24,503 nt of DNA from a virus. Shown piece after piece: positions 5,392-16,823 of the stretch. Position numbers and translations under genes: made by a program. The notes under the pieces were generated by a model, which was not told the DNA's origin, made no database searches, and saw nothing but the letters and a program-made list of their open reading frames with translations. Where the stretch lies: positions 1-24,503 of the IMG/VR virus record IMGVR_UViG_3300021365_000107; one strand, written 5' to 3'. The number at the start of each line of letters is the position of its first letter. Within the stretch, counting starts at the first letter, position 1.

Positions 5392-6351
5392 TTATTCAGT
5401 GTATTCTATTGTTTGGTAAATTGATTCTTTATATTTATTTGTTAAGTCAGTATACTCACCATCTAATATAAAACCTATAGTTTTAATTTTAGGTAAAGTT
5501 ATTAATTCATTTTTACCTTTTATTATATCTGTATATTCATTATTAACTATTAATTTTAAATTAGAAATTTGAATATCAAAAAGTAAAATTTTAGATACCC
5601 CATCATTTTGAATAGTATTATGAGTATGATTGTTTTGGAAAAAAAGCTTAAATTTATTTGTGCCACTATAATTAAACATAGATTCAGGGTTATCAAATAC
5701 AATTAAATCAACTATAGGTTCTGGATGGATAGTGTATAAAAAATTAGTTATTAAATGGCCCCAGTAATCTTCAGCTGATTTAAACCTGCTAGGTTCTTTC
5801 CATGGGAGGGTGTCACACATATAATGTTCTTTATTAATTAGAGGTAATAAAGCTTTTAAATTTTTCCTATTTAAAATATTAAGCATAAAGCTTGGGTATC
5901 TAGGGTTTGATTCACTACAAGGCTGTACCTTAGATGTTAAAAAAGAAGTAGGATTATTTAAAGCAGTAATTATTAAATCTGTAATTTGGATATCATAATT
6001 TATAAAACTAAAATGACTATAGTCTAAAGATAAACCTAAATTACCACCTAATAAAATTTGATTAAAAGCAGTCCAACCATAATCTGGGTATATAGTTTGT
6101 AAGCGATAGTTAGTATCATCTAATATTTTTTTCCAAAAAACCATCCCCCTATATGGCCAATTAATTATAGGGTTACTTTTATCATAAATAAAATACTCTA
6201 TCATTTGTTGAATATGAGAAGGTATAGGTGTGTGTGATAATAATAAAATATCAAAATTTTGAGTCTTTAATTTTTTAATATTATCTGTTAATATTTCTAT
6301 TTTTTCCTTTGAATCACAATGGGAAAGAATTATTATTAAATTATTTTTCAT
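5392..6351 (-). CDS. Putative glycosyltransferase of the glycan cassette
   Basis: This 319-residue soluble protein opens with beta-alpha-beta pattern NLIIILSHCDS, then DILLLSHTPIP (34-44) and EYFIYDKSNP (52-61). This opening resembles GT-A-type transferase-like proteins I associate with phages and giant viruses. A motif around HFSFINYDIQ could stand in for the metal-binding DxD region, but I do not see a clean DxD. It starts with ATG overlapping the preceding gene by 11 nt and is the last gene of a four-gene overlapping run of sugar-modifying enzymes, which supports a glycan role through coupled translation. No terminator hairpin is visible after it. The enzyme class is inferred and could be wrong; the coding call is secure. 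Confidence 0.6.
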   Translation of the reverse strand: MKNNLIIILSHCDSKEKIEILTDNIKKLKTQNFDILLLSHTPIPSHIQQMIEYFIYDKSNPIINWPYRGMVFWKKILDDTNYRLQTIYPDYGWTAFNQILLGGNLGLSLDYSHFSFINYDIQITDLIITALNNPTSFLTSKVQPCSESNPRYPSFMLNILNRKNLKALLPLINKEHYMCDTLPWKEPSRFKSAEDYWGHLITNFLYTIHPEPIVDLIVFDNPESMFNYSGTNKFKLFFQNNHTHNTIQNDGVSKILLFDIQISNLKLIVNNEYTDIIKGKNELITLPKIKTIGFILDGEYTDLTNKYKESIYQTIEYTE

Positions 6352-7783
6352 AACATTTTATATAGTTATCTTTATTTTTACTAACATCGTATTTTTCGAT
6401 ACACTCATATTCTATATAGTTAGTAAAAGGATCATTGCTTTTAAACCAATCCCCATTATTATTTAATAATTGATTTATAATAGGTGTTTCCGACGTATAT
6501 AATGTAAGTAAATTATTTTTGGTATCCAAAGTATTTTGGTCTAGTTTTTGTTGGGATTTACCAAATACGTAAAAATCATTAGTAATATTAAGTATAATAT
6601 CAAATACTAGTTTATGTTGTGGGTGACCATATTCACCTATAGGATTATGAGTAACTATTTTTTCCCATTCTCTACTTTTTAAAATATCTTTTAAATTAAA
6701 TTGTTGGGTAGGGTATAGTGTATCTTCATAATCAAACATTTCCCAAGAACCTACATTTAATTTTTTCATTACTGTTTCAAATTCTTTACTTCGTATTTTA
6801 TTTAATTTATTAGTAAGACAAACAACTTTATATTCTGGGCCATATTTTATTAATTCTGCTCCTCCAAATATTAATTCATCATCAGGGTGAGCAACAACCA
6901 TTAATTTAGTAGTTTGGTAATCATTAAAGGCTAATTTTAAAGTTTCAGCATTTTTAGGCTTTACTGAAGGATCGGGACCATGAATAAAGTAAGGTTGAAG
7001 GGTTAATGTATCATACATTACATCAAATCCTTGTTTTAAATAATAAGGATTTACTATTGTTTCTTCTTTTGAACTGTAATAATTATTCCAGGTAATAGGT
7101 AAATTTTCTTTTTTATCTTCTTCCCATAATATATTATTAGCTACTCTTTCTTCTGAAAAGGCATTATCATCAATATAGATTTTAATTGAATATTGATTTA
7201 ATTCTTTATTCCATTCTAGACATTTTTCAAAAAAGGGTTTACTTTTTTTATCGTAAAAATAAAACCCAGTTGCTATTAATTTGTTGTTAGGATTTCTTTT
7301 TATATTTTTTATAGAAGCTAATTCATTACCATATCTACCATCTAATTTTATACCTCCATGTTGTCTCCATTGGTATATATCAGGGTTAAAATATTTCATA
7401 AATAATGGATAATCTTTTAAAGATGGTAAATACTGTAATGAAGAATCTATATTTTTAGTTGCAAAGGCATCACCATCTATCCAAGCAAAACTATTAAAAT
7501 TTTCATTTAGTGAATCTAAACTTGCTAAATATTTAGCAAAGTAAATAGAATAATCTTTATTAAATAAATCGGGTTCATGTGTAAAATTTGACGTAGGTTT
7601 AGGTATATAATCAATTCTTTTATTAGTTACATTAGGTAAATCGATTGTAGAATCACAATTAAAACTATACACTATAAGATTGTATTTAGAATATTTTAAC
7701 AAACTTTTAGCTAATATTTCTATCATTAATAAATAACTTTTATCCCCTCCAGTTATCCATGTAAATTTATTTTTTTTAACCAT
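6341..7783 (-). CDS. Fusion of a GT-A-type glycosyltransferase and a PIG-L family de-N-acetylase
   Basis: This 480-residue protein has two domains. Residues 1-270 look like a GT-A nucleotide-sugar transferase: an N-terminal strand (KFTWITGGDKSYL), a metal-binding DxD-like WIDGD (Asp103, Asp105), and later HGGIKLDGRYG and TGFYFYD. Residues about 293-400 match the PIG-L/LmbE zinc-dependent deacetylases of sugar N-acetyl groups: AHPDDE (298-303), an Arg-x2-Glu element (331-334), and HPQH (387-390). By analogy with MshB-type enzymes, His299, Asp302 and His390 would bind zinc. The protein could add an N-acetylated sugar and then deacetylate it, leaving a free amine, although the two activities might be independent. 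It overlaps the upstream gene by 8 nt and the downstream gene by 11 nt. The PIG-L call is strong and the GT-A call moderate. Confidence 0.82.
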   Translation of the reverse strand: MVKKNKFTWITGGDKSYLLMIEILAKSLLKYSKYNLIVYSFNCDSTIDLPNVTNKRIDYIPKPTSNFTHEPDLFNKDYSIYFAKYLASLDSLNENFNSFAWIDGDAFATKNIDSSLQYLPSLKDYPLFMKYFNPDIYQWRQHGGIKLDGRYGNELASIKNIKRNPNNKLIATGFYFYDKKSKPFFEKCLEWNKELNQYSIKIYIDDNAFSEERVANNILWEEDKKENLPITWNNYYSSKEETIVNPYYLKQGFDVMYDTLTLQPYFIHGPDPSVKPKNAETLKLAFNDYQTTKLMVVAHPDDELIFGGAELIKYGPEYKVVCLTNKLNKIRSKEFETVMKKLNVGSWEMFDYEDTLYPTQQFNLKDILKSREWEKIVTHNPIGEYGHPQHKLVFDIILNITNDFYVFGKSQQKLDQNTLDTKNNLLTLYTSETPIINQLLNNNGDWFKSNDPFTNYIEYECIEKYDVSKNKDNYIKCYEK

Positions 7784-10064
7784 TTAAAATATTTATAACT
7801 TTATTATATACTTGGTCTACTGTTATTGATTTCTGACAAATATGTTGGTCTTTAGTTCCTTTATTTTTAGGGCACCAATCCCAATCACCAGCATCAAAAG
7901 TATAATCTTTACTTACCCAACAATTATTACATACAGAATTATTTTCGATTTTAGTTAAGTAACTAGTAAATTCATAACCATAGGGGATAAAATTATTAAT
8001 CATTACTGTTTCTTTATTTAAAGCCCAATTAACCCAAGATAAACCTGATCCTAATCCTATAAATAAATCTGCGTGATGGAGGTAATTAAATGTTTTATCC
8101 CAATTTAATTTTTGTTTATTAATTATATTAGTTCCTTTAAATCCTTCATAAGATAAATTAACTATTTTATATCCTTTTTTATGCAATTTTTTTGCTAGTT
8201 CTCTCCAATTTTGATAAGGCCATTCTTTTAAACCTGCTGTTGATTTAGGTCCTATACAAATATATTTTCCTTTTATAGGTCTTTTACCTGGGGTGAAATT
8301 GACACCTTTATTAATTTCTTTATATGGTAAACCTAATATATCTGTAATAGTCTGAATTAAAGGGATAGTATTAGGGGAATTTGGGTTTTTAAAACCTTCA
8401 TCCCATTTTTTATTATTTTTAAACCATCCTATTGTATAATGAGCATAAGCCTCAACATTGGAATTGGGTTGTACAAACTTAATATTTTTATATGCTTCCA
8501 AGTTTTCAAACCACTCATTGTGAAAAGTTGAAGCTATTATTTCACATTTATGTTTATTTTGAAATTCTAAAATTTGGGGTACCCATGCTAAAGTATCACC
8601 TACTGATTTTGAATCTAATGATATTTTAACAACTTTATTTTTTAAATTTAATTTATGTACTATTTCTCCATTAATTTTAATAATCCAGGGAATATAATAT
8701 TGTTTACTACACGTAGTCCACATATTATTTGTAATAGTAGAAGAATGGATAACTTTATCATTTCGTGAATCAATAAACTCTACAAAATATTTTTTATTTT
8801 TAGTACCATAAGTTTGAACTTTAGGTCCTTCACCAAAACTTATTTCTACTTTATTTTCAGGAAGATTATTATATAATCTATCAATTTCTATACTTGCTAG
8901 TTTTGCAGCTCTTTCCCAAGTAAATTTATCTCTTATTTCTTTAGATTCTTTTAATGCTTGTTTTTTATGTCTATCATAATTTTTATAAGCATCCCTCATT
9001 ACTTTTTTTAAGTCTTCATAATCAGGAGTATAAAATTCACCTGTCATATCAGATTGAGAGAATGTACTATATTCACCCATTATAGCGGGTTTTTTACCTG
9101 TTATTTTAACAGGTAATCCTTTACCTTCTGCAAATTGTAATTGGGCACTACAGTTAGAATAAATAGAAGGTGTACCACATGCCATTGCTTCTATTAAAGG
9201 TAAATTCCACCCTTCAGCACGAGCACAGGATAGAAATACATGACCCTTTTGTAAATATTTTACATAGTCTTCTCTAGAAGGAAAATGTTTAATTTTTAAT
9301 CTAGGATCTAAAAGTTTATAATGTTTTAATCTATTTTCAGTAGTCTCTAATTTATCCTTTGCAAATCTATTGTCTATAGATAAAACTAAATCTATAGGTT
9401 CATCTTCTCCAAATTCTTCTAAAAACGCTTCTATTATTTCTTTAGTAGATTTTCTATAATCCCATCTACCAAAATGGACAAATTTAAACCTACCATCATC
9501 ATATTCAGGTAAAGTTACATCTGGGTTTGGGTGGAAGATGTTGGAATCAACAGCCTCTGGTATTACTTTTATTTTATCCTCAGGCATTCCTTGCTCTATA
9601 TTGCATTGTTTTTGCCATTCTGAAGGTACCCATAATTGTTCATATTCTTTTAATTTATCAAAGAAATAATCAGGGTATCGAGTTGTTTCCCATACTGTGT
9701 ATCCTATCTTTGGACCTTTATAGTCTTGGTAAAAATAATGGTGATTTACTTCAGCTAAAATTATATTAAGATCAGGGGTAAAAACATTTGGGTAATTTTG
9801 ATAAATTGGAAAATCATTTAATTGATGTTCATTATTAAAATATGTTTGTTGATCTAGAAAAATTTTATCAGAAGTTGTTAAATATTCTTCTTTATTAAAG
9901 GGTTCGTCTTCTAAACCTTTCCAATGTTTACCAACAGTAAAATTTCTAACTTTTATTTTATATGTTTTAGATATTTCTCTAAAAAAATCTCTAGTATGGT
10001 TATTAAATCCTGTTGTTCCTATATAACAACTATGGAGATGTAATTTTGGTTTTTTATCTAACAT
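7776..10064 (-). CDS. Bifunctional GT4 glycosyltransferase fused to a BAHT-type protein O-heptosyltransferase domain
   Basis: This 762-residue protein has two parts. Residues 1-400 are a GT4 (GT-B fold) glycosyltransferase: HFGRWDYRKSTKEIIEAF (197-214) and the E-x7-E motif in AEGWNLPLIEAMACGTPS (Glu284, Glu292). Residues about 425-762 match the bacterial autotransporter heptosyltransferase family (Aah, TibC). The evidence is a strand-loop-strand N-terminal section, GDTLAWVP (489-496), GLSWVNWAL (674-682), and four cysteines spaced C712-x2-C715-x15-C731-x11-C743, like the iron-binding finger described for TibC, followed by SITVDQV. Characterised BAHT enzymes transfer heptose from ADP-heptose to serines of repetitive adhesins. 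Here the nearest repetitive Ser-rich proteins are the collagen-like fibres encoded upstream. The gene starts 2 nt after the GT9-like gene. The domain calls are good; the substrate is inferred. Confidence 0.85.
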   Translation of the reverse strand: MLDKKPKLHLHSCYIGTTGFNNHTRDFFREISKTYKIKVRNFTVGKHWKGLEDEPFNKEEYLTTSDKIFLDQQTYFNNEHQLNDFPIYQNYPNVFTPDLNIILAEVNHHYFYQDYKGPKIGYTVWETTRYPDYFFDKLKEYEQLWVPSEWQKQCNIEQGMPEDKIKVIPEAVDSNIFHPNPDVTLPEYDDGRFKFVHFGRWDYRKSTKEIIEAFLEEFGEDEPIDLVLSIDNRFAKDKLETTENRLKHYKLLDPRLKIKHFPSREDYVKYLQKGHVFLSCARAEGWNLPLIEAMACGTPSIYSNCSAQLQFAEGKGLPVKITGKKPAIMGEYSTFSQSDMTGEFYTPDYEDLKKVMRDAYKNYDRHKKQALKESKEIRDKFTWERAAKLASIEIDRLYNNLPENKVEISFGEGPKVQTYGTKNKKYFVEFIDSRNDKVIHSSTITNNMWTTCSKQYYIPWIIKINGEIVHKLNLKNKVVKISLDSKSVGDTLAWVPQILEFQNKHKCEIIASTFHNEWFENLEAYKNIKFVQPNSNVEAYAHYTIGWFKNNKKWDEGFKNPNSPNTIPLIQTITDILGLPYKEINKGVNFTPGKRPIKGKYICIGPKSTAGLKEWPYQNWRELAKKLHKKGYKIVNLSYEGFKGTNIINKQKLNWDKTFNYLHHADLFIGLGSGLSWVNWALNKETVMINNFIPYGYEFTSYLTKIENNSVCNNCWVSKDYTFDAGDWDWCPKNKGTKDQHICQKSITVDQVYNKVINILNG

Positions 10065-10066
10065 TT

Positions 10067-10942
10067 TTATTGATTTAAGGAGGAGGTTATTTTATCTATA
10101 TCAAATACTTCATTCAAATCATTATAAGGAATTGAGTGTATATTTTCAGATAAAAAAGTTGGATTATAAATTTTAGAAGTATAATCTGGTTCTTTAGTAA
10201 AGGGTTCAGCTATTATGTTATTATGTATTTTATAACCAAATATTTCCGGTTTAGTTGTAACCCAACATACTGTTGATTTTAAATTTAAAGCAGCAGCCAT
10301 ATGTTGTGTAAAAGAATCTATAAGTAATCTTTTATCAGACATTTGTAATAATATTGCTATGCTTCTATACCCATCTAAAGCTTGAAGAGTATTCTCATAT
10401 ACTATTTGGTCCTTCCTCTTAATGTGAATTATTAAATGAGATTCTTTATAATATTCTATTATTTGTTTTATAATGGGTGTTGGGATATCTCTTGTCCAAG
10501 TATATTGATACCCAAGTCCTTCTGGACCACCATGGGGGTGGATTGTTAAAATAGGTTTATCTTTAAGATAATAAGGAGAAAAATAATCTATCTCAGGTTG
10601 AGTTAAATATATTTGAGGTTGTTCATTATTATAATTTAACCCTAAAATTTTACACCAAGTTTTAAGTAAATTTATAGGTTTCTCTGTTATAAAGTCTGTA
10701 TCTTTATAAGGTTCAGTAGCAAAAACTTTACAATCTTTATCTTTAATATATTTAAGATATAAACCATTTAGTTGGCCAATTTGATGTACTGCAAATACAT
10801 AGGGGTTGTTTAAAAATACATCTGTATAAGATGTTACTACTATTAAATTAGAATTTTTATATTGTTTTTTTATTACTTTTATCATGGCAGTTGCCATAAT
10901 GCTTTTACCTAGACCACCATCTATTTGGAAAATAATATTCAT
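10067..10942 (-). CDS. GT9-like (heptosyltransferase-like) glycosyltransferase
   Basis: The 291 residues match the GT9 layout (GT-B fold, as in lipopolysaccharide heptosyltransferases). There is a glycine-rich N-terminal loop GGLGKS (9-14) followed by a helix and VVTSYTDVFLNNPYV, then IHPHGG (134-139). The C-terminal nucleotide-sugar region is LLIDSFTQHMAAALNL (206-221), with the Asp-Ser-x3-His arrangement, followed by TKPEIFGY. It is somewhat shorter than typical GT9 enzymes. It is the first gene of the tightly coupled glycan cassette; the next gene starts 2 nt after its stop. No recurring late motif lies before it, so it may be read through from the fibre genes. Donor and acceptor are unknown. 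Confidence 0.75.
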   Translation of the reverse strand: MNIIFQIDGGLGKSIMATAMIKVIKKQYKNSNLIVVTSYTDVFLNNPYVFAVHQIGQLNGLYLKYIKDKDCKVFATEPYKDTDFITEKPINLLKTWCKILGLNYNNEQPQIYLTQPEIDYFSPYYLKDKPILTIHPHGGPEGLGYQYTWTRDIPTPIIKQIIEYYKESHLIIHIKRKDQIVYENTLQALDGYRSIAILLQMSDKRLLIDSFTQHMAAALNLKSTVCWVTTKPEIFGYKIHNNIIAEPFTKEPDYTSKIYNPTFLSENIHSIPYNDLNEVFDIDKITSSLNQ

Positions 10943-11000
10943 TTATAACTTTTTTATTTAAAACCAATATACGTAAACTATTTATCTACTCCACATTATA

Positions 11001-11711
11001 TTACACTCCTATTATTTCAGATATATCAGATTTAGATATATCAATTACTTTTGTATATTTACTATTAGGTATCCCAATTATGTCATTGCCATATGAAGGA
11101 GCAGAGTGTGTTATAAATAATTGTGGGAATACTGTTGTACTAGCAAATTGAATACCTCCTAGTAAATCTTGGGGTAAAAGCATTTCTGTATTAGTATAAT
11201 CAAAACTACCACCTACAACTACTAAATTAAGATAGTTATTACTATTAGCATCAGAAATTGCTGTTGCATTCAACGTGATAGTATTTGTTGATGTGGACCA
11301 AACGTGGTTTGAAGCATTATAAGGAGTAGGAAGAAGACCATTTGTGGTAGTCCAATTATTAAAGTCTGTATTAACATATGCACTTCCACCACTAGTACCA
11401 AAAGCTGTACTTTTTGCAACTCTAGTATTATAACCTCCATTTGTAGCTCCTTGTATTTTTAAATCTATAGCAGTAATAGTATCAGTTATGGTTGAAGTAT
11501 CGAAAAAGAAAAATGCTCTATTTAATCGATAAGCACCTCCTTTTGGACCTGAACTATATAATTCTCTAATAGCTGAAGTATTATTTGATTGAAATGTAGT
11601 ATAATTAACATGTATAGCAGAAGAAGTAGCATCTCTAGCTGCCGACCAACTAGATTTAGTACCAGATTGAGCTGCTGTTTGTTTACCTGCATTTATAGTT
11701 GTTGTAGACAT
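11001..11711 (-). CDS. Beta-rich probable virion appendage protein
   Basis: This is a 236-residue Ser/Thr/Asn-rich protein with strong beta propensity and no signal peptide. Residues about 60-90 contain RLNRAFFFFDTS followed by alternating hydrophobics (ITAIDLKIQG), reminiscent of jelly-roll surface or carbohydrate-binding domains. The C-terminus ends in short similar units, IIGIPNSK and ISEIIGV, a pattern I associate with phage structural proteins. It starts 15 nt after the giant fibre gene with no promoter motif between, so the two are probably co-transcribed. It could be a tip or adhesin partner of the fibre. Family membership is not certain. Confidence 0.7.
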   Translation of the reverse strand: MSTTTINAGKQTAAQSGTKSSWSAARDATSSAIHVNYTTFQSNNTSAIRELYSSGPKGGAYRLNRAFFFFDTSTITDTITAIDLKIQGATNGGYNTRVAKSTAFGTSGGSAYVNTDFNNWTTTNGLLPTPYNASNHVWSTSTNTITLNATAISDANSNNYLNLVVVGGSFDYTNTEMLLPQDLLGGIQFASTTVFPQLFITHSAPSYGNDIIGIPNSKYTKVIDISKSDISEIIGV

Positions 11712-11726
11712 ATTTTAAAATGATTT

Positions 11727-14700
11727 TTAAGCTCTTTTAACCCAAGTGTTATCTGGGTGTAAATAAATCTTTCCATTTTCAATACTATAACCTATTACCC
11801 TAGCTATATCCCCATTACCTGTAGGTGCAGAGGTAGATACCTCTCCAGCAGTAGATCCAATATATAAAGGAACACCATATGAATTTGGAAAAGCAGAAAA
11901 TTTAGCAAATCCTCTAATTAGAACTCCACTACCAGCACTAGTACCTAAAGCTATTCCTAACATTCCTTTAGCATTATCTTCAGTATCGCTTTCTGCTAAT
12001 TTCCAATTAAGAGCAGATAATGCACTAAAACTAACAACAAGATCTCCTGCTGCAATACTACCATTAATAGTACTAAAGGTACCAAAGGTTACTATTTCTC
12101 CAACAGTTTCATTAGCACTTGCTGGTTCTTCGTACTCAATATAACCATCAATATTTAATATACTACCATCAAATAATAAATTTGCTTCAGCATTTACTGA
12201 TCCAGCAATACCAGTAGCTGTTATTACTCTATTATCACCATTATTTCCAATAGTAGCAGCACCACTTGTTCCACTTGAACCTGATGAACCTGAATTACCA
12301 GATGTTCCTGAGGATCCAGAAGAACCTGATGTACCTGATGAACCACTTGAACCTGAAGTTCCTGAAGATCCTGAACTACCTGAGTTACCAGATGTACCTG
12401 ATGTCCCTGAAGAACCTGAAGAACCACTAATACCTGATGAACCTGAACTACCTGAGTTACCAGATGTACCTGATGTCCCTGAAGAACCACTTGAGCCGGA
12501 TACTCCGGAAGAACCACTTGAGCCTGAATTACCACTTGTTCCAGAAGTACCACTTGTTCCATCTGCTCCTGATGTTCCCGAAGAACCACTTGAACCCGAA
12601 TTACCTGATGTCCCTGAAGAACCACTTGAGCCTGATACTCCGGAAGAACCACTAGAACCTGAATTACCACTTGTTCCTGAAGTACCTGAATTACCAGATG
12701 TTCCTGAAGATCCAGAAGAACCCGATGTACCTGAATTACCGGATGTACCACTTGAGCCTGAACTTCCTGAAGTTCCTGATGAGCCTGATGAACCTGAAGT
12801 ACCACTTGTTCCATCTGCTCCTGATGTTCCCGAAGAACCACTTGAACCTGAATTACCAGATGTTCCTGAAGAACCAGATGAACCACTTGTTCCTGAAGAT
12901 CCTGAGGTACCACTTGTTCCTGAGTTACCACTTGTTCCTGAAGAACCTGATGAACCTGATACACCACTTGATCCACTTGAGCCTGAAGTTCCTGATGTAC
13001 CACTTGTTCCAGAAGATCCACTTGAGCCTGACACTCCAGAAGAACCACTTGAGCCTGAATTTCCTGAAGTTCCGGATGTACCTGAATTTCCAGATGTTCC
13101 TGAAGAACCAGATGAACCACTAGTTCCAGAAGAACCTGATGAACCTGAAGTTCCTGAAGTCCCTGAAGTTCCACTTGTTCCTGAATTACCACTTGTTCCT
13201 GATGAACCACTTGAACCTGAAGTTCCTGATGAACCACTAGTACCAGATGAACCACTAGTACCAGATGAACCACTTGAACCTGAAGTACCATCGTCACCTC
13301 TATCACCTGTTGTTACAAATGATGCTATAATATCTTCATTATTTGTTAAAGCATTACCCCCTTGTGCTTCAAATATTATTGTAAATTGCCACCAAGATCC
13401 TTGATCAACTAATTCATCAATAGCAAATAATATAAAATCAGAGGGATCATCTTTATCTGATAATCTCATATGACCTTTTATAGCTGAGGTTGAAGAATCT
13501 ATTGTTTCAAAAAATGATTGAACAGAATTTCCATCATCATCAGTTTCACTAATCGCCGATATAGTTGCAGAAGTTTGTGTTGCATTATTTAATCTTACTT
13601 TACCCGAACCTGGGTTTGATATTGTAGTAGAAACATTAAAAGTATAGTCAAATGTAGCACCACCAAAGTTACCATCTTGTCCTGATGTACCCGATGAACC
13701 TGAAGAGCCGCTTGTACCAGATGAACCACTTGTACCTGAAGAACCTGAAGTTCCACTTGTTCCTGAGTTACCAGATGTACCTGATGAACCACTTGAACCT
13801 GAAGTACCACTTGTTCCTGAGGATCCACTTGAACCTGAATTACCTGATGTACCTGATGAACCACTTGAACCTGAAGTACCAGATGTACCACTTGAGCCTG
13901 AACTTCCTGAATTTCCTGATGAGCCTGATGAACCCGAAGTTCCAGATGTTCCTGATGAACCATCTGCTCCCGAAGTTCCTGATGAACCACTTGAACCTGA
14001 AGTTCCTGAAGAACCTGAAGTTCCACTTGTTCCTGAATCTCCAGATGTACCTGATGAACCAGATGAACCTGAAGAACCAGATGAACCACTTGAACCTGAT
14101 ACACCACTTGATCCACTGGATCCTGATGTACCTGATGTTCCTGATGTTCCTGATGTTCCTGAATTTCCAGATGTACCTGATGAACCACTTGAACCCGAAG
14201 TTCCAGATGTACCTGATGAACCATCTGCTCCTGATGTCCCTGAAGAACCTGAAGAGCCATCTGCTCCAGAAGTCCCAGATGTTCCTGATGAACCTGAAGA
14301 ACCTGAATTACCTGATGTACCTGATGAACCACTTGAACCCGAAGTTCCAGATGTTCCTGATGAACCATCTGCTCCTGATGTCCCTGAAGAACCTGAAGAG
14401 CCATCTGCTCCAGAAGTCCCAGATGTTCCTGATGAACCTGAAGAACCTGAATTACCTGATGTACCTGATGAACCACTTGAACCCGAAGTTCCTGATGTAC
14501 CCGATGAACCATCTGCTCCTGAAGTTCCAGATGTTCCTGAAGACCCTGATGAGCCTGAATTACCCGATGTACCAGATGAACCACTTGAACCTGAAGTACC
14601 ACTTGATCCAGATGAACCTGAAGTTCCTGATGTACCTGATGAACCGTCTGCTCCTGAAGTTCCTGAAGATCCTGAACTACCTGAATTACCAGATGTACCG

Positions 14701-15104
14701 GATGTCCCTGAAGTACCATCTGCTCCTGAAGTACCTGAAGTACCACTTGATCCACTTGAACCTGAAGTTCCTGATGTTCCAGAAGAACCATCTGCCCCCG
14801 AAGTACCTGAAGTACCATCTACTCCTGAAGTTCCTGAAGAACCTGAAGAACCTGAAGAACCTGAAGTTCCTGAAGATCCAGATGAACCACTAGTACCTGA
14901 TGAACCACTTGATCCAGAAGTACCTGAACTCCCAGAAGAACCTGATGTACCACTAGATGCAGCATTTTCTCTGGTACCTACTGTACCATCACTATTTATT
15001 ACTAGGGTTGTTTCTTCAGATCCTTGGGTTGAAAGACCTGTTAATTTTATTTCATTCAGCTCAGCGTTACTACCACTGGTAATTACTTTTTTCCAATTTG
15101 GCAT
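11727..15104 (-). CDS. Giant collagen-like fibre protein with Gly-Ser/Thr-Ser repeats
   Basis: The protein has 1125 residues. Residues 1-51 form a small N-terminal module (NWKKVITSGSNAEL to VGTRENAASS) almost shared with the 395-residue fibre. Residues about 52-475 and 603-950 are Gly-X-Y triplets where Y is almost always Ser (sometimes Asp) and X is Ser, Thr, Asn, Ala, Val, Ile or Asp. No proline appears in these tracts. Residues about 476-602 are a globular insert (FDYTFNVSTTISNPGSGKV onwards). Residues about 951-1125 are a globular C-terminus with NLLFDGSILNIDG, DIARVIGY and NGKIYLHPDNTWV. Collagen-like triplets in phage fibres usually make elongated trimers. The extremely dense Ser/Thr content and the downstream glycosyltransferases suggest it may be glycosylated. 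It has a promoter-like motif and a structured leader. Confidence 0.9.
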   Translation of the reverse strand: MPNWKKVITSGSNAELNEIKLTGLSTQGSEETTLVINSDGTVGTRENAASSGTSGSSGSSGTSGSSGSSGTSGSSGSSGTSGSSGSSGSSGTSGVDGTSGTSGADGSSGTSGTSGSSGSSGTSGTSGADGTSGTSGTSGNSGSSGSSGTSGADGSSGTSGTSGSSGSSGTSGSSGSSGTSGNSGSSGSSGTSGTSGADGSSGTSGTSGSSGSSGTSGNSGSSGSSGTSGTSGADGSSGSSGTSGADGSSGTSGTSGSSGSSGTSGNSGSSGSSGTSGTSGADGSSGSSGTSGADGSSGTSGTSGSSGSSGTSGNSGTSGTSGTSGTSGSSGSSGVSGSSGSSGSSGSSGSSGTSGDSGTSGTSGSSGTSGSSGSSGTSGADGSSGTSGTSGSSGSSGNSGSSGSSGTSGTSGSSGSSGTSGNSGSSGSSGTSGTSGSSGSSGTSGNSGTSGTSGSSGTSGSSGTSGSSGSSGTSGQDGNFGGATFDYTFNVSTTISNPGSGKVRLNNATQTSATISAISETDDDGNSVQSFFETIDSSTSAIKGHMRLSDKDDPSDFILFAIDELVDQGSWWQFTIIFEAQGGNALTNNEDIIASFVTTGDRGDDGTSGSSGSSGTSGSSGTSGSSGTSGSSGSSGTSGNSGTSGTSGTSGTSGSSGSSGTSGSSGSSGTSGNSGTSGTSGNSGSSGSSGVSGSSGSSGTSGTSGTSGSSGSSGVSGSSGSSGTSGNSGTSGTSGSSGTSGSSGSSGTSGNSGSSGSSGTSGADGTSGTSGSSGSSGTSGSSGSSGTSGNSGTSGSSGSSGTSGNSGTSGTSGNSGSSGSSGVSGSSGSSGTSGNSGSSGSSGTSGADGTSGTSGTSGNSGSSGSSGVSGSSGSSGTSGTSGNSGSSGSSGISGSSGSSGTSGTSGNSGSSGSSGTSGSSGSSGTSGSSGSSGTSGNSGSSGSSGTSGAATIGNNGDNRVITATGIAGSVNAEANLLFDGSILNIDGYIEYEEPASANETVGEIVTFGTFSTINGSIAAGDLVVSFSALSALNWKLAESDTEDNAKGMLGIALGTSAGSGVLIRGFAKFSAFPNSYGVPLYIGSTAGEVSTSAPTGNGDIARVIGYSIENGKIYLHPDNTWVKRA
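12256..13296 (-). repeat. Second Gly-X-Y coding repeat tract of the giant fibre
   Basis: About 115 nine-base units encode Gly-X-Ser/Asp triplets, bounded by the GDRGDDG start at about 13290 and the C-terminal domain near 12256. It includes a 47-base stretch repeated exactly 72 bases apart (12370-12416 and 12442-12488). Synonymous Ser and Gly codons are mixed, so most units are not identical at DNA level. Confidence 0.9.
13680..14952 (-). repeat. First Gly-X-Y coding repeat tract of the giant fibre
   Basis: About 140 nine-base units encode mainly Gly-Ser-Ser and Gly-Thr-Ser, with scattered Gly-Ala-Asp and Gly-Asn-Ser. Long open frames in the other five frames across this tract are a by-product of the periodicity. 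Confidence 0.9.
14161..14484 (-). repeat. 144-bp tandem duplication inside the fibre repeat tract
   Basis: Copies 14161-14304 and 14305-14448 differ at only three positions (14166, 14169 and 14211 compared with their partners), and the identity runs on about 36 bases into a third, diverging copy. Each unit encodes 16 triplets (48 residues). This is much more similar than the surrounding repeats, so it is probably a recent expansion. Confidence 0.9.
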
Positions 15105-15635: not shown

Positions 15636-16823
15636 TTAAGAGTAAATATAAATATCTTGATTATTAGCGACAAATATATTTCCTTTTGCATCATATCTTG
15701 TTGGTGCATCATCTGGGTCATTGGTTGTCCCAACAACTACTGTTGCCATAAAGGCATCAGGGGTAAATGATGAACCACTTGCATGGAATGAACTTGTTAC
15801 ACCCCATCTTAATGATGATAATCCATCATAAGCAAAGGCATCACCATAGTCTTGATCTACTTGTTGAATTACAATACCACCATCTCCGGCTGAATTTGAA
15901 CCTGAAGCTAATAATATAAATCTATCTTTTATTAATAAATTTTCTGAATTTTGGAAAGATGCTGTACCTTGTACTGTTAAATCACGTGTGATAATTACAT
16001 CACCAACAACATTTAATAATCCATCACCCTCTGGGCTTCCAACATCATTAAATGTAAGATTTGTATTAGCTCTAGCACTATCACCATCAATATCAGTCAT
16101 TACTCTTCTAACTCCTGAATTAGTAATATTAATTACACCACTTGTTCCACTTGATCCTGATGAACCTGATGAACCACTTGAACCTGAAGTACCACTTGAT
16201 CCTGAGGATCCACTTGAACCAGAAGTACCATCTGCTCCTGATGTCCCTGAAGAACCTGAAGAACCTGAAGAACCTGAACTACCGCTTGAACCTGAAGTTC
16301 CTGAAGTACCACTTGTTCCATCTGCTCCTGAAGTACCTGAAGAACCTGAAGATCCTGAAGTACCATCTGCTCCTGAAGTTCCTGAAGAACCTGAAGAACC
16401 ACTTGTTCCATCTTCTCCTGATGTACCAGATGAACCACTTGAACCTGAAGTTCCATCTGCTCCCGAAGTTCCAGATGAGCCACTTGAACCAGAAGTACCA
16501 TCTGCTCCTGATGTTCCTGAAGAACCTGAAGAACCTGAACTACCGCTTGAACCTGAGCTACCGCTTGAACCTGAAGTTCCTGAAGTACCACTTGTTCCAT
16601 CTGCTCCTGAGGTACCAGATGAACCACTTGAACCTGATGAACCTGAACTACCTGAAGAACCTGAACTACCTGAACTAGCAGCATTTTCTCTTGTACCAAT
16701 AACACCTGATGTGTTAATAGTTAATACTGTGTCTTCTGATGCTTGTGTTGATAAATCCGTTAAAGTTAGTTGTGCTAATTCTGCATTAGACCCACTAACT
16801 ATTACCTTTTTCCAATTTGCCAT
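15636..16823 (-). CDS. Collagen-like fibre protein, shorter paralogue
   Basis: This 395-residue protein has an N-terminal module (residues 1-50, NWKKVIVSGSNAEL to GTRENAASSG) that closely matches that of the 1125-residue fibre, indicating paralogy or a shared docking role. Residues about 51-228 are roughly 60 Gly-Ser/Thr-Ser triplets with Gly-Ala-Asp and Gly-Glu-Asp interruptions and no proline. Residues 229-395 are a globular beta-rich C-terminus containing GLLNVVGDVIITRDLTVQG and ENLLIKDRFILLASGSNSAG, typical of phage tail appendage proteins. It probably forms a trimeric thin fibre. It is a second Ser-rich candidate acceptor for the glycosyltransferases. It has its own promoter-like motif (16857-16868). 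Confidence 0.88.
   Translation of the reverse strand: MANWKKVIVSGSNAELAQLTLTDLSTQASEDTVLTINTSGVIGTRENAASSGSSGSSGSSGSSGSSGSSGTSGADGTSGTSGTSGSSGSSGSSGSSGSSGSSGTSGADGTSGSSGSSGTSGADGTSGSSGSSGTSGEDGTSGSSGSSGTSGADGTSGSSGSSGTSGADGTSGTSGTSGSSGSSGSSGSSGSSGTSGADGTSGSSGSSGSSGTSGSSGSSGSSGSSGTSGVINITNSGVRRVMTDIDGDSARANTNLTFNDVGSPEGDGLLNVVGDVIITRDLTVQGTASFQNSENLLIKDRFILLASGSNSAGDGGIVIQQVDQDYGDAFAYDGLSSLRWGVTSSFHASGSSFTPDAFMATVVVGTTNDPDDAPTRYDAKGNIFVANNQDIYIYS
16139..16674 (-). repeat. Gly-X-Y coding repeat tract of the shorter fibre
   Basis: About 60 nine-base units encode Gly-Ser-Ser, Gly-Thr-Ser and Gly-Ala/Glu-Asp triplets. The same codon-mixed style as in the giant fibre suggests a common origin. Confidence 0.9.

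Follow-up and report, generated by a model that had tools for sequence, protein, structure and literature searches.

A phage-encoded TibC-type glycosyltransferase and the serine-rich collagen-like fibres proposed as its substrate

Why would a phage carry a protein glycosyltransferase of the TibC type next to collagen-like fibres whose triplets nearly all contain serine? The question is raised by IMG/VR virus record IMGVR_UViG_3300021365_000107, a 24,503-base fragment of the genome of a virus of bacteria, analyzed here over its whole length (the window). The gene content of its minus strand is that of a contractile-tailed phage, with a major head protein, PhoH, neck, fibres, glycosyltransferases, sheath, tube and hub. 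One of these genes encodes a 762-residue protein in which a GT4 glycosyltransferase is fused to a BAHT (TibC-type) domain, and two collagen-like fibres of 1125 and 395 residues are encoded upstream of it in transcription order, at higher plus-strand coordinates (Table 1). The answer considered likely here is that the phage's own fibres are O-glycosylated by its BAHT enzyme.

The enzyme was assigned by family, fold and individual residues. Residues 406-757 matched TIGR04414 (hepto_Aah_TibC) at 203.2 bits (204.1 in a second search) against a cut-off of 200, and the TibC sequence (4RAP) aligned to residues 409-760 with an E value of 4.5e-34. The structure of the 762-residue protein was predicted with AlphaFold2 (predicted local distance difference test score, pLDDT, 82.4), and the modelled BAHT domain superposed on TibC with a Z-score of 35.4 and 2.3 Å over 346 residues. 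A preliminary description of this DNA, made from the sequence alone, had named a TibC-like fold beforehand as a test. It had also read the protein as a GT4 transferase fused to a domain with BAHT hallmarks, and this reading was borne out: the motifs GDTLAWVP and GLSWVNWAL and the four cysteines it listed (C712-x2-C715-x15-C731-x11-C743) are present, the GT4 half matched PF00534 at 38.8 bits (cut-off 26.4), and the fold of residues 1-403 gave structure matches at Z 25-33 (3oy2, Z 33.0 over 355 residues).

TibC glycosylates protein serine, with Asp110 as catalytic base, Lys230, Trp305 and Thr226 in the sugar site, and Arg286 touching the adenine of ADP-heptose (PMC4358343; this and the other papers cited by PMC number are represented here by excerpts). 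The corresponding residues in the window are Asp490, Lys613, Trp677 and Thr609, and Cys712, 715, 731 and 743 align with the iron-finger residues Cys339, 342, 358 and 370 of TibC. Equivalents of Asp110, Lys230, Trp305 and the four iron-finger cysteines were kept in 68/68 distinct phage BAHT domains, with the Thr226 position occupied by Thr in 59 and by Ser in the other 9. Insofar as the catalytic residues are kept, the chemistry of the domain looks active, judged from sequence and fold. At the Arg286 position the window has Thr658, and Arg was found there in 8 of the 68 phage domains; in a joint alignment it was kept in 59/59 rows of an autotransporter branch, 8/37 phage rows and 10/25 rows of a phage-like bacterial branch. 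Heptose is therefore not assured and the donor need not be ADP-heptose; with this adenine-contact residue replaced, heptose as a firm conclusion was dropped.

The two fibres, described at first as holding roughly 300 Gly-X-Y triplets with Ser in nearly every one, were found to contain 321, of which 295 carry Ser. Both matched Pfam Collagen (E 1.4e-108 for the 1125-residue fibre and 1.2e-26 for the 395-residue fibre), and they have an N domain in common. Serine was present in 243 of the 261 triplets of the longer fibre, 101 of them Gly-Thr-Ser, with Ser at Y in 243 and Ser or Thr at X in 114 and 101, respectively. The shorter fibre has 60 triplets, 52 with Ser (at Y) and 20 reading Gly-Thr-Ser. 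Serine in the long fibre is encoded by 299 TCN and 58 AGY codons, and the use of both codon families argues that the amino acid has been kept by selection and that the pattern is not a DNA repeat alone. The absence of an autotransporter, also stated at the outset, agreed with zero matches to autotransporter families among the eight proteins scanned with Pfam in this genome fragment. Elsewhere, a single phage record was seen to carry a Ser-rich Gly-X-Y fibre next to two proline-rich Gly-X-Y fibres (L110:5775-13773), and in the 735-kb phage record LR756501 a Ser/Thr-rich Gly-X-Y protein lies about 4 kb from the BAHT gene (L556:8569-10665).

Co-occurrence of the domain and the repeat across phage records was examined in three designs. 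For the first, records were picked only by a DNA pattern for Gly-Ser-Ser-Gly-Thr-Ser and then searched with TIGR04414. Since the BAHT domain lay within only 7/80 listed short loci around Ser-rich repeats, local adjacency was a poor measure and whole records were searched. TIGR04414 scored over its cut-off in 22/50 pattern records, in 0/50 records picked by a proline-type collagen pattern and in 0/46 picked by an unrelated poly-Glu pattern, where 1/46 gave a weak match below the cut-off. A count by eye limited to records of 40 kb and longer gave 16/33 versus 0/36 (p 6e-7). The 50 pattern records were drawn, mostly the larger ones, from 79 listed in a scan with at least 120 stretches, and L144, which is among them, lacks any Gly-X-Y tract that reaches 8 triplets. 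The proline-type pattern is partly palindromic, and a tract of at least 15 triplets was present in 57/79 new listed loci, so that some of the 50 control records are weak collagens; of the 80 poly-Glu records listed, the 46 on contigs longer than 15 kb were used.

The second design followed one phage lineage in 50 records, taken from loci that BAHT or tail-sheath searches had brought up together with L002, small fragments and some near-copies being dropped. The domain was detected in 31/50 (E ≤ 0.001), 25 over the TIGR04414 cut-off and 6 below it. The Gly-[Ser/Thr]-[Ser/Thr] pattern occurred in 20 records, all domain-positive, and in 0/19 domain-negative records; restricted to records no shorter than 40 kb, several of which are closely related, the counts were 12/12 versus 0/5. 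When only the 34 records drawn by tail sheath and not by BAHT were counted, the repeat was present in 6/15 domain-positive and 0/19 domain-negative records (p 0.004).

The third design compared fibres of one family, at 77 loci picked out because they share the mid domain. The Ser content of the same open reading frame (ORF) was at least 0.46 at 29 loci and at most 0.16 at 44, and four had no tract. A BAHT domain accompanied 11/29 Ser-rich, 0/44 Ser-poor and 0/4 tractless fibres (p 1e-5, near-copies included). Profile searches covered 75 of the 77 loci, L499 and L504 being scored by a local hidden Markov model, and 5/9 matches in one set were over the cut-off. A Ser-poor example is the fibre of L057, which has a mid domain 49% identical to that of the window and the same C domain; Ser occurs in 5/273 of its triplets, its repeats are mostly Gly-Ala-Gln, Gly-Asn-Gln, Gly-Asn-Thr and Gly-Ala-Thr, and its record has no BAHT gene.

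Bacterial relatives supplied an independent comparison; named members of the family, on which the idea could be tested, are Microcystis phage Mel-JY01 and Methylobacter luteus. The Mel-JY01 relative is 44% identical over 97% of the 762-residue protein, and six-frame translation of that phage shows an ORF with 202 Gly-X-Y triplets and 79% Ser/Thr at X and Y, only the end of which is called as a gene in the deposited annotation; in M. luteus a Gly-Thr-Ser/Ala repeat protein neighbours the BAHT gene. The best 80 of 90 BAHT loci from a scan of genome contigs were taken, and a quickly built tree (122 rows) placed 59 bacterial rows on one branch (support 100), with 37 phage and 25 bacterial rows on the other side (support 93). 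On the first, autotransporter, branch AIDA was found in 5/6 neighbour proteins scanned. On the phage-like branch many loci adjoin Gly-Thr-Ser or Gly-Ser-Ser repeat proteins, several of them short and, by eye, with a signal- or lipoprotein-like start. All ten bacterial repeat proteins scanned from this branch matched Pfam Collagen at E ≤ 0.001, 8/10 over the cut-off, and 0/10 matched AIDA or another autotransporter family. A pattern of four repeats was present at 16/24 loci of the phage-like branch and 0/55 of the autotransporter branch; L617 was excluded from both sides of this count and, by the Gly-X-Y measure, would add one autotransporter-side positive. Some of the 24 loci are possibly phage contigs binned as bacteria: L559, L563, L568, L569 and L576 group with phages in the tree, and L581 resembles a phage contig by eye. 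The composition of the repeats was common to phage BAHT-positive and bacterial members, with Ser/Thr at X in 83-85% and Ser at Y in 76-85%, counted only in ORFs with Ser/Thr in at least half of both positions.

In Methylococcaceae, the BAHT gene at L565, L566 and L573 (about 9-12 kb) adjoins a small Gly-Thr-Ser/Ala-repeat protein whose beginning is signal-like, and in gammaproteobacterial metagenome-assembled genomes (L560, L567, L570 and L571) small lipoprotein-like Gly-Ser/Thr-repeat proteins, some acidic-tailed, were seen by eye to adjoin BAHT genes. BAHT with Ser-rich repeats was also seen in contigs binned as archaeal (L561 and L581; Thermoplasmatales and Nitrosotalea), where the host assignment is doubtful and L581 is phage-like by eye.

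The same pairing was followed in 14 whole genomes, most of them picked for a nearby repeat protein. In total, 94/114 overlapping pattern matches (one array being counted repeatedly) lay within 11 kb of a BAHT gene; 12 genomes had at least one match there, and in 9 every match was there. One genome, G270, had no pattern match. A second Gly-Thr-Ser array lies away from the BAHT gene in the Methylobacter genome G268 (contig C22:58607-58853).

These bacterial loci bear on the possibility that the enzyme targets another virion protein or phage DNA and that the composition of the repeats has some other cause such as flexibility. Glycosylation of virions and of DNA by phages are both known (PMC12619734, PMC11256854), and Ser-rich fibres do occur with no BAHT detected. 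However, the same family adjoins Gly-Ser/Thr-Ser proteins on bacterial contigs that have no virion-like neighbours by eye, namely L565 and L573 (Methylococcaceae) and L570 (gammaproteobacterial), none of which appeared phage-like. Such another target is considered very improbable.

Several results weigh against glycosylation of the fibres by the BAHT enzyme. No BAHT gene was found for 28/50 Ser-rich pattern records and 18/29 Ser-rich mid-domain fibres, some of them on contigs of 60-148 kb, and a phage BAHT profile found no missed copy in 41 BAHT-negative Ser-rich records, in a search made without a positive control. The Ser-rich mid-domain fibres without BAHT have the same composition at X and Y. 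Conversely, 11/31 BAHT-positive records of the phage lineage, all of at most 36.2 kb, have no repeat. Among the bacterial genomes, 15/16 pattern matches in G268 and 2/2 in G267 lie away from the BAHT gene, and L617, with a 61-triplet Gly-Ser/Thr tract, sits on a long stem on the autotransporter side. The known substrate of TibC is described as a beta-helix (PMC4358343), not a collagen rod. Finally, on the tree of the mid domain, the independent pairs differing in BAHT number two to three that agree in Ser content and none that oppose, too few for significance. A two-way rule, by which every Ser-rich fibre would have a BAHT gene, was rejected by the 28/50 and 18/29 negative cases, and the association is therefore one-way.

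Some of these points would also fit a history in which BAHT genes and Ser-rich fibres are carried along together, through common descent or the exchange of modules, and do not act on each other: the independent pairs are too few, near-copies entered some counts, and many Ser-rich fibres have no BAHT gene in the record. The pairing nevertheless recurs in several separate phage branches, in Methylococcaceae and in other gammaproteobacterial assemblies, and the nine genomes in which every repeat match adjoins a BAHT gene argue in the same direction. The Ser-poor label changed at least six times on the mid-domain tree, by supported branches, and yet BAHT accompanied none of the 44 Ser-poor fibres. 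Little credence is given to mere co-travel. Co-occurrence across phages had been proposed as a check in the preliminary description, and its reading of the locus as a fibre-modifying system gained support from the fold, from the phage co-occurrence and from the independent pairing in bacteria.

What surrounds Ser-rich fibres lacking BAHT was also surveyed. No Pfam glycosyltransferase was found among 45 neighbour proteins from 10 such loci (drawn from 69 proteins at 12 loci, with L525, L538 and most of L540 dropped as near-copies), and DUF2827, DUF7164 and a 2OG oxygenase matched one neighbour each. Beside Ser-poor fibres, GT2 was found in 2/103 neighbour proteins (of 178 listed), among the best 25 of 62 families.

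The proteins next to the window's enzyme suggest more than a single transfer. The 480-residue protein, which has a PIG-L deacetylase domain at residues 294-399 and no match in a Pfam scan over its N-terminal half, is joined to the C-terminal end of the GT4-BAHT protein in L011, L015, L040, L046 and other relatives (Pfam domains checked for L046), and for this reason probably belongs to the same pathway. Relatives L233 and L234 carry a fused FkbM methyltransferase domain. The 319-residue protein had no Pfam family over the cut-off and no PHROG; its predicted fold resembles mannosylglycerate synthase (2bo7, Z 14.3, 3.2 Å over 169 residues). The 291-residue protein was matched weakly to BAHT in a profile comparison (probability 25%, E 8e-4), belongs to PHROG 8954 of unknown function and is perhaps GT9-like. 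With these fusions and neighbours, a short elaborated glycan seems a better description than a single sugar.

A cassette of this kind might instead alter the host surface (O-antigen or capsule) and exclude other phages, its place near the fibres reflecting a host-recognition module. Glycosyltransferases beside pelagimyophage fibres have been read as modifying the host O-chain (PMC7029224), a similar suggestion was made for freshwater actinophages (PMC10202952), and PIG-L with several nearby transferases could make a polysaccharide. This explanation does not predict that fibre Ser content tracks the BAHT gene, nor would it lead one to expect that BAHT genes of bacteria are paired with small repeat proteins, and the serine of a protein is what TibC modifies (PMC4358343). 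It is judged unlikely.

For the preferred reading, fibre glycosylation, the computed evidence consists of the family and fold, the retention of the catalytic residues, the composition of the repeats and the co-occurrence, and from it we infer the fibre as acceptor, the order of the enzymes and the role of the glycan. During virion assembly, a cytoplasmic BAHT domain would place a sugar on Ser, perhaps also Thr, of the Gly-[Ser/Thr]-Ser fibres. Extension and trimming of the glycan would probably fall to the GT4 half together with the adjoining GT-A-fold, PIG-L and possibly GT9-like proteins. The finished fibres would project from the tail as rods that are nearly free of proline and densely glycosylated. 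More tentatively, and with less than even confidence, a widespread branch of the TibC family may have switched from autotransporters to (Gly-Ser/Thr-Ser)n repeats, many of its members also changing donor along with Arg286. It would then provide a portable writer and scaffold for phage fibres and for small secreted or lipoprotein-like bacterial repeat proteins, in which dense O-glycans at Y do the work of hydroxyproline and lend stiffness to a helix nearly free of proline.

The system shares with TibC and Aah the TIGR04414 sequence family, the GT-B fold, Asp110, Lys230 and Trp305, the four iron-finger cysteines and a repetitive partner protein. It differs in that its enzyme is phage-encoded, fused to GT4, changed from Arg286 to Thr and adjacent to a collagen-like fibre instead of an autotransporter. 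Mycobacteriophages likewise encode glycosyltransferases and have sugared virion proteins (Freeman et al. 2023, cited in PMC12619734 and PMC11256854); there the C-termini of capsid and tail tube are modified, whereas collagen-like fibres and a TibC-type transferase are concerned here. Mimivirus L230, a collagen lysyl hydroxylase and glucosyltransferase (PMC9614988), is a viral enzyme that glycosylates a collagen-like protein, but it acts on hydroxylysine with a GLT25D1-like domain, and the window's TibC-like domain is proposed to act on Ser/Thr. In vent-worm cuticle collagen, glycosylated Gly-X-Y hydroxyl residues are credited with a helix stability that replaces hydroxyproline (cited in PMC6953826); that is an animal collagen modified at Thr, whereas the phage fibres are nearly proline-free and Ser-rich, with a stabilizing effect only proposed. 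Among open-licence papers, judged by titles and the beginnings of abstracts, none was listed that describes a BAHT-type enzyme with phage fibres or collagen-like repeats as its substrate; the single hit of one search concerned Cronobacter.

Fibre glycosylation would explain, in a way open to testing, why many environmental phages have such unusual Ser-rich collagen-like fibres, and it competes with the published host-surface reading of fibre-adjoining glycosyltransferases (PMC7029224). If it is correct, collagen-like repeats join the known substrates of TibC-type enzymes, and their short, simple acceptor motif could serve to place dense O-glycans on proteins.

Table 1. Features of the fibre and glycosyltransferase region, in window coordinates.
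Feature	Position	Strand	Basis or remark
319-residue protein, predicted GT-A fold (residues 4-219)	5392..6351	-	structure model
480-residue protein with PIG-L deacetylase domain	6341..7783	-	Pfam
GT4 + BAHT (TibC-type) fused glycosyltransferase, 762 residues	7776..10064	-	ORF, profiles, fold
BAHT domain, residues 404-762	7779..8855	-	TIGR04414, TibC alignment, fold, residue mapping
GT4 domain, residues 1-403	8856..10064	-	Pfam, fold; proposed to extend glycan
291-residue protein between fibre and GT4-BAHT, perhaps GT9-like	10067..10942	-	weak profile match
Collagen-like fibre, 1125 residues, proposed acceptor	11727..15104	-	Pfam Collagen, triplet count
N domain of 1125-residue fibre	14958-15104	-	
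Mid domain of 1125-residue fibre	13305-13673	-	
C domain of 1125-residue fibre	11730-12263	-	
Repeats of 1125-residue fibre	13674-14957 and 12264-13304	-	
Collagen-like fibre, 395 residues, proposed acceptor	15636..16823	-	Pfam Collagen, triplet count
Repeats of 395-residue fibre	16140-16676	-	

A PHROGs scan of ten other window proteins returned phage families for six (hub, tube, sheath, neck, PhoH and head) and no match for four. Among related loci, a second, shorter BAHT-like ORF was observed directly after the full GT4-BAHT gene (L048:8741-9625), and small kinase-like and nucleotidyltransferase-like ORFs, which might supply an activated sugar, were seen by eye ahead of the BAHT gene (L047:4568-5002 and L092:1521-2764).

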